Source: a virus
Strand: one strand, 5' to 3'
DNA length: 29,552 bases
Virus record (IMG/VR): IMGVR_UViG_3300020233_000005
Coordinates: 1 to 29,552 of that record
The notes under the pieces are model-generated. The model saw only the letters and a list, made by a program, of their open reading frames with translations, was not told the DNA's origin and searched no databases. The translations under genes and the position numbers were made by a program. Shown here piece after piece: positions 4,984-18,216 of this stretch; the stretch's first letter is position 1, and every line of letters starts with the position of its first letter.

Positions 4984-5568
4984 ATGGAAAATGAATTAGA
5001 TGACTTCGACATCGAAAACGAAGAGGAAGACATCGAGGAAGAAGCTGACACCGAAGAGGAAGAAACTAAAGAAGAAGCCGAGGAAGAAGCTGACACCGAG
5101 GAAGACTCTGATGAATTAGAAACATTACGCAAAGAAAACAAAACACTACAAGCTCAAAAGGCTAAGTGGCGTGATAAAGCTAATAAACCTGTAGAGGTTA
5201 AAACTGAAGAGAAAGAGAAAGAGAAAGTTGACTCTAGCGAACCTACTCTTTCCAGTACAGATTTGCTATCACTTTTGGAAGCAAAGATAACGAATGAAAA
5301 AGACGTAGAACTTGTGACAAAAGACGCACAACTTCTAGGTGTTTCTATTTCTGAAGCTCTTAAGAACGACATTGTCGTTGAAAAGTTAAGAGTTATAAAT
5401 GAAAAAAGAAACACGGCCGACTCCACAAACACTCGTACTACTCGAGCTGGAAATAAAGGTATGTCTGATACTGAACTTATCAAAAAGGTTAATGCTGGAT
5501 ACATTCCAGAACCTGGCACAAAAGAAGCTGAACAGCTATTCTTGGCAAGACGTAAAGGACTAGAGTAA
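4984..5568 (+). CDS. Putative scaffolding protein
   Basis: This 194-residue protein lies just before the major capsid gene, the standard place for a scaffold, which shapes the prohead and then leaves or is degraded. Residues 1-45 are almost all Glu and Asp, with two similar EEADTEE blocks. Residues 45-75 form a charged coiled coil (ELETLRKENKTLQAQKAKW). The middle is Lys/Glu-rich. The C-terminus (GYIPEPGTKEAEQLFLARRKGLE) is basic and helical, as in scaffolds that dock onto coat protein. Its own promoter lies immediately upstream. The role is inferred from position and composition. Confidence 0.8.
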   Translation: MENELDDFDIENEEEDIEEEADTEEEETKEEAEEEADTEEDSDELETLRKENKTLQAQKAKWRDKANKPVEVKTEEKEKEKVDSSEPTLSSTDLLSLLEAKITNEKDVELVTKDAQLLGVSISEALKNDIVVEKLRVINEKRNTADSTNTRTTRAGNKGMSDTELIKKVNAGYIPEPGTKEAEQLFLARRKGLE

Positions 5569-5578
5569 ATATACGGCG

Positions 5579-5627
5579 GGAACCATTAAAAAATTAACAC
5601 GGTTCCTTTACAATTAAATATTGTAAA
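5579..5627 (+). promoter_or_regulatory. Two abutting stem-loops in the capsid gene leader
   Basis: Stem 1 pairs GGAACC (5579-5584) with GGTTCC (5601-5606) around a 16-base AT-rich loop, with a possible G-T closing pair. Stem 2 pairs TTTACAAT (5607-5614) with ATTGTAAA (5620-5627) around TAAAT. The stems touch end to end and could stack. They end 14 bases before the likely capsid start. Stem 1 lacks the T-run of a good terminator. A translational or RNA-processing element is more likely, and stem 2 could also be a DNA operator. Confidence 0.5.
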
Positions 5628-5641
5628 CACTACGAAAGCTT

Positions 5642-6508
5642 ATATTTAACACAAAAAGCACATACAGTCAGCGCGACAAATACTTCAAGTCACAATTTGA
5701 TATTGTTCTTAGGAACGCTATTATTGCCGAGAAGATTTGTAAAGTTGACCGTTCAGACCTTAAAAGAATTCAAAACCCATACGGAAACCAAATTACTGCG
5801 ACAATTCAAGCAGTTGCTGGTACGTACTCTGTAACAGCATGGACAATTACAGATGAAGCACTTACTGTAACTGATGAAGTAAACTTTTCAGAGCATATCT
5901 TTGCTCACGAAGAGTATTTTTCACAGTTTAGTTTGTCACAATCTCGTATTGACGAAATGATGTACGGAGTTGCTTATGGTATTGATAAGTTTGTTCTTAA
6001 CAATCTTACAGAAGATGCAACTGGTGCATACACAACTCCGGTTGGAGGATTTACCACTGCATCTAATATCAACACAATCTTTGCTAACTTACGTTCAAAG
6101 GTTGGTGGATACCAAAACAACTTCAATGGAATGGGAAACAAACTATTTGTTGTTCTTGAAGCAGCAGATATGGTTGGTGTAACTATTGCAGGAGCTACTA
6201 ACGGATTCAATTCTTCAGACTCTGTTCTTAAAAACGGACAAGTAGGAAGTTGGATGGGAGTAGACATCTTTGAAGTACAAGACGGAACGTTTGTTAATGC
6301 AACACTTGGTACTACTACAGTTACCAATTCTGGACATCGAGTATTTGGTGTAAAGAACGCATCAACATACGCTTCACCACGTGGACTCCAAATGGAGGAA
6401 AAAGGTGTATCAGGTAAAACTGGTAAGGAGATTGTAGTCTTTGGACTCGTAGGATTCAAACTATGGGCGCAAAAGGCAGGAATCACCGTTGATATTACGA
6501 TTTCCTAA
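5642..6508 (+). CDS. Major capsid protein (HK97-like fold), non-canonical start
   Basis: The frame is open from 5627 to the stop at 6508. From 5642 it gives 288 residues, normal for a major capsid protein. It reads FNTKSTYSQRDKYFK near the N-terminus, then KVDRSDLKRIQNPYGNQ, and ends GFKLWAQKAGITVDITIS, all typical of HK97-fold coat proteins. There is no in-frame ATG, GTG or TTG before TTG 5933 and ATG 5957, and starting there would discard about 100 well-formed residues. ATA at 5642 is the only sensible initiator-like codon. The alternatives are a mutated ATG or an assembly error. It lies between scaffold and head-completion genes, behind two stem-loops. Confidence 0.85.
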   Translation: MFNTKSTYSQRDKYFKSQFDIVLRNAIIAEKICKVDRSDLKRIQNPYGNQITATIQAVAGTYSVTAWTITDEALTVTDEVNFSEHIFAHEEYFSQFSLSQSRIDEMMYGVAYGIDKFVLNNLTEDATGAYTTPVGGFTTASNINTIFANLRSKVGGYQNNFNGMGNKLFVVLEAADMVGVTIAGATNGFNSSDSVLKNGQVGSWMGVDIFEVQDGTFVNATLGTTTVTNSGHRVFGVKNASTYASPRGLQMEEKGVSGKTGKEIVVFGLVGFKLWAQKAGITVDITIS

Positions 6509-6515
6509 TATCTAT

Positions 6516-6593
6516 CTCGTAGAACTTAATAATGTTCTACGAGGGTATGGGTAGGAAACTCCCGTCGGTTTTCTCCCTTTATCCTCGTAGAAC
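6516..6593 (+). promoter_or_regulatory. Alternative-pairing RNA element after the capsid gene
   Basis: CTCGTAGAAC occurs at 6516-6525 and again at 6584-6593, and its reverse complement GTTCTACGAG lies between them at 6534-6543. The middle copy can form a perfect 10-bp stem with the first copy (8-base loop) or with the last, but not both. The element fills the 99-bp gap between capsid and the next gene, 15 bases before the latter's ATG. It could adjust expression of the downstream genes relative to the capsid. No T-run follows the first stem. Confidence 0.6.
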
Positions 6594-6607
6594 TAACACA
6601 AATATTA

Positions 6608-16520: not shown

Positions 16521-18044
16521 ATGCAATCAGTAAGTGAATGGCAAAAAGGAATACAACCGTCTAACACTGGAAATACAGGTTTTCAGTCTGTTTCTGCTTG
16601 GCGGTCAACACGACCAACAACAACTAGACAGCAATTACAACCAGAACTTTCATTCTTTGATAAATTAAAAGGGTTTGGAAGTAGTGCCTTAAGTGGTATT
16701 AAACAGATACCGAGCTATTTATCACAAAGTGTAAGAAACCCTATACAATCAGGTGAGGGGGTGTTTAATACTGGTGTCGTTAAACCATTAGCTTTTCTAA
16801 ATGAAATAGGTGTTTCATTGACCAAGAAGTTTGGAATAAAAACTAGTGAGCCAAGGAATGTATTTGCAGAAGCTTCGAAAGCTATCGATGAACTCAAAAG
16901 GAGCGACAACCAACAAAAGGCATATGACACAGGTTCTTTTTTGGGGTATATGATTCCGTTTAGTAAAGTTTCACAAGGTGCAAGACTCGGACTGGGTGCT
17001 TTAAAACTGACACCAAAAGTAGCGAAGTTTATACCTGCGATTGCAGACACTGTGGGATTTTTAGGTACAGGACAGATACTATATGAAGAAGAAAATGGTT
17101 CGCGCGTTGACCAGTTAAAGAATGACACGATAGCACTTGCTTTGTTTACTGGCGGTGGCTTCTTACTTAAACGTGGTTTGGCACTAAGACAAAACAAATT
17201 AAAAAATACTCTTTCAGAAAAGGCTAAAAAGGAAGTTACAGAAGTGATGAAGCCAGTGGCGTCAACATTAGAAAGTGGTGGCAAAGTACCCTCTTCTGTT
17301 TTAGACGAAGCTGTAACAAAGGCAAATAGTGTTGTTATCAGAGATACTGGTAAGACTACAAAGGAGTTACTACTAGACTCATTAGAGAAAAGAGCGAAGA
17401 CATCAGTCAAAGAACTTAGGACACGTCCTGCTCTAAAGAATGAGCTTAGAGTTAAGCCAATAAAGACAAAGTCAGCACCCAAGATAAAAGAAGAGCCACT
17501 AAAAGTATTTTCAACTGAAAGCACATCAGGTCTTGCTAAAAGCATTAAACGAAAAGCTATCAAGTCTAAGATGATATTTGCGTTTGACAAACGTTTTAAT
17601 GAGTTGCCAAAACTTGAAAGGCGTATAAAGAAAGAAGATATTAAAAAGACAGATGAGTTTACTGTCAACAACCCAAATGAAGCTTTTGTAGTGGCTATGG
17701 GGCGAAAACCAGCACCGGCAGGCATGTTGCCAGAAGATATGCTTGTGTCAGTTACCAACTATGCAAGTGCCACGGGAAACGTAGAAGTGATGCGAAAATT
17801 AGCCAACGAGTCTGGTTTATTGTTAGAAAGTAGGATTTTAGGGCAAAGAGTACAAGCCCTTTCACAACTTAATCCTGTTGCTAGAAAGTTGACTGAGGTA
17901 ATAAAAGCTCATCAAGGTAAGGTTGTAAACTATGACAAAAGAGTAAATTCTACAAGAAAGACTATCAAGAATGAAGTAAAGAAAAACAACCTATCAAAAG
18001 AAGATACAAATTGGAGTAAATTTTTGGATAGTATCGTATGTTAA
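16521..18044 (+). CDS. Internal virion protein, probable first half of a split giant protein
   Basis: These 507 residues open with two similar motifs (QSVSEWQKG, residues 2-10, and QSVSAWRST, 22-30), followed by hydrophobic glycine-rich segments (about 145-210: GARLGLGALKL, SRVDQLKNDTIALALFTGGG) that could contact membranes. The C-terminal half (AFVVAMGRKPAPAGMLPEDM, then LLESRILGQRVQALSQLNP) resembles large multi-domain ejection proteins of environmental phages, and the ending KFLDSIVC with a terminal Cys is characteristic. A large antisense frame overlaps this gene but is only its shadow. Partner gene: 18217. Confidence 0.65.
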   Translation: MQSVSEWQKGIQPSNTGNTGFQSVSAWRSTRPTTTRQQLQPELSFFDKLKGFGSSALSGIKQIPSYLSQSVRNPIQSGEGVFNTGVVKPLAFLNEIGVSLTKKFGIKTSEPRNVFAEASKAIDELKRSDNQQKAYDTGSFLGYMIPFSKVSQGARLGLGALKLTPKVAKFIPAIADTVGFLGTGQILYEEENGSRVDQLKNDTIALALFTGGGFLLKRGLALRQNKLKNTLSEKAKKEVTEVMKPVASTLESGGKVPSSVLDEAVTKANSVVIRDTGKTTKELLLDSLEKRAKTSVKELRTRPALKNELRVKPIKTKSAPKIKEEPLKVFSTESTSGLAKSIKRKAIKSKMIFAFDKRFNELPKLERRIKKEDIKKTDEFTVNNPNEAFVVAMGRKPAPAGMLPEDMLVSVTNYASATGNVEVMRKLANESGLLLESRILGQRVQALSQLNPVARKLTEVIKAHQGKVVNYDKRVNSTRKTIKNEVKKNNLSKEDTNWSKFLDSIVC

Positions 18045-18214
18045 AAGAATTAAAATATCACATAATCGTCTGGGGAATAATAGTTGTATTTGTTGTACTT
18101 AATTTTGGCGTACTTGGAGCATTAGAAGTGTTTGGAACATTAGTTTGGTATATTATAGTAGCGACTTTTATCGTAGCGACTGTCTTTTTATTAGGTTATC
18201 TTTTAAGTGAATAA
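18038..18214 (+). CDS. Small two-span membrane protein, 58 residues
   Basis: An ATG at 18038 overlaps the previous stop by seven bases and runs 58 codons to TAA 18212-18214, two bases before the next ATG. A basic MLKELKYH head precedes two hydrophobic spans (IIVWGIIVVFVVLNFGVLGA and TLVWYIIVATFIVATVFLL). It could be a holin, but the real lysis cassette is 6 kb away. A membrane partner of the flanking ejection proteins is an equally good reading. Confidence 0.7.
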   Translation: MLKELKYHIIVWGIIVVFVVLNFGVLGALEVFGTLVWYIIVATFIVATVFLLGYLLSE

Positions 18215-18216
18215 TT

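Follow-up and report, generated by a model that had tools for sequence, protein, structure and literature searches.

A probable AUA start on a phage major capsid gene, and near-cognate starts behind structured leaders in its family

Natural AUU starts are known in bacteria from infC and pcnB, and in infC the near-cognate start serves autoregulation. In dicistroviruses, the intergenic IRES is a structured RNA that lies ahead of a capsid gene with a non-AUG start. In phage T4, as described in the relevant part of PMC3014915, hairpins shorten the distance between the SD and the start codon of genes 25 and 38 from 27 to 11 and from 22 to 5 nt, respectively. T4-like phages also carry mobE and segB, free-standing HNH endonuclease genes located between structural genes with RNA hairpins nearby, in which a hairpin hides the endonuclease's own RBS, according to the portion of PMC2988022 that treats them.

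The major capsid protein (MCP) gene analysed here shares features with each of these systems. Like infC and pcnB, it shows a single-base variant of AUG at a conserved start, but its product is a major virion protein, the variants occur in separate lineages, and AUA and ACG dominate. As in the split RBS of T4 genes 25 and 38, a hairpin would, when looped out, shorten the distance from an SD-like motif to the start (family median, 28 to 5 nt); compared with the T4 genes as far as that account covers them, the gene concerned is a capsid gene, GGTG or GGCG lies at or in the hairpin base, the starts include non-AUG codons, and an extra or HNH-bearing segment is optionally present. As with mobE and segB, an endonuclease gene can lie between structural genes with RNA structure near it, whereas here, in comparison with what the cited text describes, the endonuclease gene lies entirely within a long stem beside the capsid start. 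Finally, an intergenic structured RNA precedes a non-AUG capsid gene as in dicistroviruses, but the system is bacterial, a pseudoknot is not part of the leader model, and every one of the non-AUG start codons is a near-cognate of AUG, pointing to the initiator tRNA. Near-cognate starts, split RBSs and free-standing homing endonucleases are thus each known already; what appears to be new, in that we did not find it in open-licence PMC text, is that they come together on a major capsid gene and do so repeatedly within one phage family. A search of the same literature returned no report of AUA or ACG initiation of a phage MCP.

The capsid frame and its start column

The window, by which we mean the whole stretch of DNA analysed (29,552 bases), is a contig (G000:C1) binned with a host genome of 748 kb (85 contigs, 94% complete); the hosts of these phages are probably Patescibacteria/CPR. 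The window contains a phage structural module composed of a terminase, a 604-aa ORF at the portal position, a scaffold-like ORF and then the MCP gene. The features around the capsid start are as follows.

4984..5568, plus strand: upstream ORF, ending with TAA at 5568; its ortholog family lies directly 5' of the MCP gene in relatives
5575..5580, plus strand: GGCGGG at the SD-like motif position (5' base of hairpin H0), where relatives have GGTG/GGCG
5578..5607, plus strand: leader hairpin H0 (RNA fold, centroid); a hairpin is found here family-wide
5594..5612, plus strand: 5' half of the extra element, TTAACACGGTTCCTTTACA (alignment); common to L099 and L025, also in L091
5608..5626, plus strand: second hairpin, UUACAAU/AUUGUAA (RNA fold)
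5622..5630, plus strand: 3' half of the extra element, TGTAAACAC (alignment)
5624..5626, plus strand: TAA stop in frame with the MCP gene, six codons 5' of the start
5642..5644, plus strand: putative AUA initiation codon of the MCP gene, in the ATG column of relatives
5642..6508, plus strand: MCP gene, 288 codons plus stop (PHROG match, pN/pS)

The upstream ORF is called scaffold-like by position only, as it gave no PHROG or Pfam match. The MCP matched major head protein profiles (PHROG 283, E 4e-6; PHROG 267, E 8.9e-5) with no match in Pfam, and by this sequence match to curated profiles it is assigned to the HK97-type phage major capsid proteins. Farther downstream, a short hydrophobic ORF of about 58 aa (18039-18215), which falls under the 60-aa limit of the ORF listing, fills the gap between a 507-aa and a 670-aa ORF and may encode a small membrane protein.

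The first-pass annotation had described the capsid frame as open from 5627 with TTG 5933 and ATG 5957 as its first standard starts. We found the frame to be open from 5627 to 6508 after the TAA at 5624-5626, with both codons in frame; initiation at TTG 5933 would indeed truncate the protein, the loss being 97 codons rather than about 100 residues. A scan of 5569-5642 detected no ATG, GTG or CTG in any frame, and the sole TTG, at 5621, is in frame and is followed by the TAA. The N-terminus as displayed, FNTKSTYSQRDKYFK, is encoded from 5645 onward, just 3' of the ATA.

Relatives, numbered here with an L prefix, were gathered by eight scans of viral contigs and one of genome contigs. The nearest to the window MCP show 67-76% identity, and a tblastn search of 50,697 GenBank phage records for close phages gave no match. 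Among host genomes (60 related genomes and 392 class members), the only MCP of this family was the window's own. The scan of genome contigs gave three loci. L048 (JAHEYD010000031.1), a contig titled Candidatus Nitrosotalea, has an MCP that belongs to the window's family and is identical to that of L047; it is probably a misbinned phage contig.

Relatives carry the N-terminal motif M(F)NTQSTYG-RDKYF, and when related N-termini were aligned, ATA TTT AAC ACA of the window fell against ATG TTT AAY ACM in L021 and L026, placing the ATA at 5642 in the ATG column, as had been expected from the window's sequence. The first 97 MCP codons showed pN of 0.13-0.18 and pS of 0.72-0.92 against seven relatives (0.13 and 0.81 against L090), a constraint equal to that on the rest of the gene. 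This purifying selection argues that the N-terminus is translated and excludes TTG 5933 and ATG 5957 as the starts of the main product. The window thus holds both marks by which we recognized near-cognate initiation, namely conserved protein sequence 5' of the first canonical start and a single-base AUG variant in the start column with no in-frame canonical alternative. Judged from sequence, AUA initiation of the MCP is well supported.

The start codon was assignable in 107 of 108 distinct MCP sequences (the N-terminus of L005 is cut off) and was ATG in 80, GTG in 13, TTG in four, ATA in four, ACG in four, ATC in one and ATT in one. Ten further distinct N-termini added two ATA starts, in L345 and L299, so that the start column was near-cognate in 12 of 117 (ATA 6, ACG 4, ATC 1, ATT 1). 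The AUA use that had been singled out as remarkable is supported for the window, and the lack of a standard start is not unique to it, the window being one of these 12. At the start column, which was picked by alignment to the N-terminal motif, 12 of the 12 codons are near-cognates, whereas each of the six codons 5' of the column is a near-cognate in 1-4 of the 12. In 10 of the 12 cases, no ATG, GTG or TTG lies in frame between the stop and the near-cognate codon; L002 and L099 have an in-frame GTG or TTG 6 and 9 codons upstream, so their starts are ambiguous. The ATA of L243 immediately follows an in-frame TAA, and the ACG is separated from the stop by TTT alone in L098 and by AAA TTT alone in L231.

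Structured leaders, an extra segment and HNH-type genes

The leader of the window contains no ORF, and as a whole it folds better than shuffled sequences (z -3.30; 2 of 200 shuffles fold as well). Among the 78 relatives with a gap of 28-60 nt upstream of the MCP gene, a stem of at least 7 bp precedes the start in 61.5%, compared with 16.3% of shuffles, and ends close to it (quartiles of the distance from the stem's 3' end, 3/5/9 nt). These hairpins have 67 distinct 5' arms, keeping the same shape with different letters. Four control families showed little or no excess of such stems (7-19% versus 6-13% of shuffles). GGTG or GGCG was found at the 5' base of the hairpin in 59 of the 78 short-leader relatives against 12.8 expected after shuffling, and the motif-to-start distance had a median of 28 nt when counted linearly and 5 nt with the hairpin looped out (n = 46). 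We infer that this motif is used as an SD; it often overlaps the stem base in relatives, and the host's 16S gene, in which an anti-SD would lie, is partial. The split-RBS spacing is a family statistic: in the window itself the motif, GGCGGG, is weak, and looping out both hairpins still leaves it about 15 nt away from the start. Searches of Rfam in eight sources gave no family at the gathering threshold, and in seven other sources, at E up to 1, only a chance microRNA-family match below the cut-off; group I matches were absent from the window, L002, L015, L016, L021, L025, L069, L075, L098, L192, L155, L186, L187, L243 and L253. Two other inverted repeats (TCGTAGAAC..GTTCTACGA and GGGTAGGAAACTCCC) occur at 6509-6606, immediately 3' of the MCP gene, which therefore has RNA structure on both flanks.

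Between the hairpin and the start, the window and most of the other near-cognate cases carry an extra structured segment. Its ends, TTAACACkGTTCCTyTACA ... TGTARACAC, are common to the window, L099 and L025. L091 shares these ends, and there the loop of a long stem (z -7.3) contains an HNH gene. In another form, read by eye, an outer stem GTTCTTT ... AAAGAAT is found in L155, L187, L186 and L299. While the window has no HNH gene at this site, a gap ORF of 150-210 aa lies upstream of the MCP gene in 6 of the 106 relatives with a measured gap (L148 gave no value). The HNH-type ORFs between the scaffold-like gene and the MCP gene are located as follows.

L155:983-1486
L192:2520-3035
L098:3935-4477
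L021:2419-2958
L075:2396-2857
L245: in the gap

Stems enclose the gap ORF in L192 (z -5.5), L155 (z -3.9) and L075 (z -2.5) as well as in L091; the pairing around that of L098 is different and weaker, and no stem was found around that of L245. Pfam matches above the cut-off were HNH in L021 (the same as L091) and L075 and NUMOD3 in L192. The ORFs of L155 and L192 are of endonuclease type, the match of the former lying below the cut-off, and that of L098 gave no endonuclease match in Pfam. The region ahead of these capsid genes is thus an apparent insertion hot spot for HNH-type ORFs. In L098 (4330-5720, near NLCEDATG) and L192 (2880-4260, near NELTENANG), a second ORF-bearing insertion splits the MCP gene itself at about the same point; by eye these insertions are group I intron-like, and they have no Rfam match.

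Near-cognate starts were found in 9 of 23 loci with gaps of at least 64 nt, a cut for "long" that was fixed after the data had been seen, but in only 1 of 80 with shorter gaps (p 2.8e-6), and non-ATG starts as a whole in 16 of 23 versus 11 of 80 (p 5.7e-7); L193, L195 and L197 were left out, as each has an in-frame ATG upstream of the assigned start. The two later ATA cases, L345 and L299, have gaps of 92 and 85 nt, in line with this association. When relatedness was controlled, the direction was unchanged and the association was not significant, with 3.3 pairs for and 0.0 against for near-cognate starts (median p 0.25) and 6.1 for and 0.6 against for non-ATG starts (median p 0.07). L253 has an ACG start behind a short normal leader, and L091 (of the HNH type), L145, L199 and L256 have long leaders and start with ATG, indicating that the extra segment is neither necessary nor sufficient.

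The proximity of endonuclease-type genes raises another reading, in which the start codon was changed so that a homing endonuclease with its target at the MCP start no longer cuts there; the cost would be low, as any start codon is read as Met. HNH-type ORFs lie directly 5' of the MCP gene in distant MCP lineages (L155, L192, L098 and L091), which speaks for it. We consider it unlikely, though still a serious competitor: L091 has an HNH gene and still starts with ATG, a site with the insertion is already protected, and the cut site is putative.

Recurrence and controls

An error of sequencing or assembly, with the gene in fact starting at an ordinary ATG, would account for every near-cognate codon being one base from ATG, and the ATA of the window is known from a single assembly, no second contig with it having been seen. 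Against an error, near-cognate codons occupy the start column in 12 of 117 N-termini, and three of these variants were also found in another metagenome. L344 and L345, from different metagenomes, both have ATA and differ at 2 positions in 3000 bases; L299 and L302, also from different metagenomes, both have ATA with 0 differences in 3000 bases; and one ACG N-terminus is common to L253 and L384 (metagenomes 3300031716 and 3300045391). In L231 and L098, the ACG has been kept across 34 synonymous changes, alongside 4 non-synonymous differences in 115 codons. Over 283 codons, L186 (ACG) and L187 (TTG) have 26 synonymous and 8 non-synonymous differences, and the counts in these two pairs show that genes with such starts remained under selection. 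L186 and L187 (3300035701_003344 and 3300032046_000224), whose capsids are about 98% identical, are also a natural pair suited to a comparison of start strength.

Near-cognate starts are, moreover, almost absent from neighbouring genes. In an unbiased stop-to-stop ORF test, a canonical start was lacking in 8 of 105 MCPs but in 3 of 399 neighbour genes (Fisher p 2.7e-4), these coming from four large plus-strand families (1/103, 2/103, 0/100 and 0/93) and the three exceptions probably representing divergent N-termini. Minus-strand families were left out of this control as shadow ORFs; over all families, 120 of 977 were flagged. In a quick tree of 107 rows, 10 of them near-cognate, parsimony required 9 changes, at least 7 of which were forced by starred (well-supported) branches. 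An error is accordingly very improbable, and the plain alternative offered by the first-pass annotation, a damaged gene or an assembly error, loses much of its force through this recurrence in separate lineages and metagenome assemblies.

Initiation might instead occur elsewhere, at an out-of-frame or distant ATG, with a frameshift, bypass or splicing joining it to the capsid frame. An out-of-frame ATG does lie within 40 nt in L002, L243, L231, L098 and L253, there are associated HNH-type genes, and L098 and L192 carry the ORF-bearing insertions within the MCP gene. Yet no ATG in any frame is present within 40 nt in the window, L155, L345, L299, L186, L099 or L192, and in the window there is none back to the stop of the upstream gene. 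The Rfam searches, group I and II introns included, gave no match, and no known self-splicing intron is, to our knowledge, small enough to fit in the 73-nt gap of the window. Since the window offers neither an ATG for such initiation nor an Rfam match, frameshifting, bypass and splicing do not explain its capsid start, and we regard such initiation as highly improbable. A bypass of the T4 gene 60 type was specifically rejected for the window, where 5569-5642 has no ATG or GTG in any frame.

Decay of the MCP gene into a pseudogene, within a defective prophage or contig, is scarcely credible. Such decay typically begins with a lost start codon, and the window's contig was binned with a host genome, but the MCP frame is full-length and under purifying selection in both halves, and the scaffold-like gene, the portal-position ORF and the terminase are all open at full length.

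A proposed leader-assisted AUA start and its meaning

The reading that we prefer, and hold to be very probable, is that the MCP gene is intact and is initiated at AUA 5642-5644 by the ordinary initiator tRNA, probably with help from a structured split-RBS leader. The near-absence of near-cognate starts in neighbour genes points to a cause local to the MCP leader. Folding of the hairpin would bring the GGTG/GGCG motif at its 5' base close to the start, forming a split or "accommodated" RBS, and we infer a role for the leader in start selection: the structured leader may position the ribosome such that AUG identity becomes less critical. Alternatively, weak codons may tune expression by balancing a strong leader, and the data do not separate this from positioning. 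The extra segment may be the site or the scar of a mobile endonuclease insertion.

IF3, which the host encodes, normally disfavours AUA starts and so speaks against this reading. A loss of IF3 that relaxes start selection in the host was ruled out by the presence of IF3 (PF00707) in G000, as in 18 of the 21 genomes searched. As for an altered or additional initiator tRNA, no tRNA gene was found in the window. A search of G000 with an initiator tRNA motif, GGGCTNATAACCC, gave no match; it missed the normal initiator as well and is hence uninformative.

A bolder reading, which we offer tentatively and consider possible though doubtful, is that the MCP leader acts as an RNA device, fixing the ribosome so firmly that AUG is dispensable. 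It would be a phage counterpart of the intergenic IRESs of capsid genes, spread or shaped by an HNH-bearing stem element that inserts 5' of capsid starts, with translation stepping over the inserted gene.

The most abundant protein of a virion would be expected to have a strong start codon. Gene callers would truncate or miss capsid genes of the kind described here; in the window, the first canonical start removes 97 residues. The reuse of AUA, ACG, AUC and AUU in one capsid family, with hardly any such case among neighbouring genes, would offer a naturally occurring test of what a bacterial ribosome requires to initiate.
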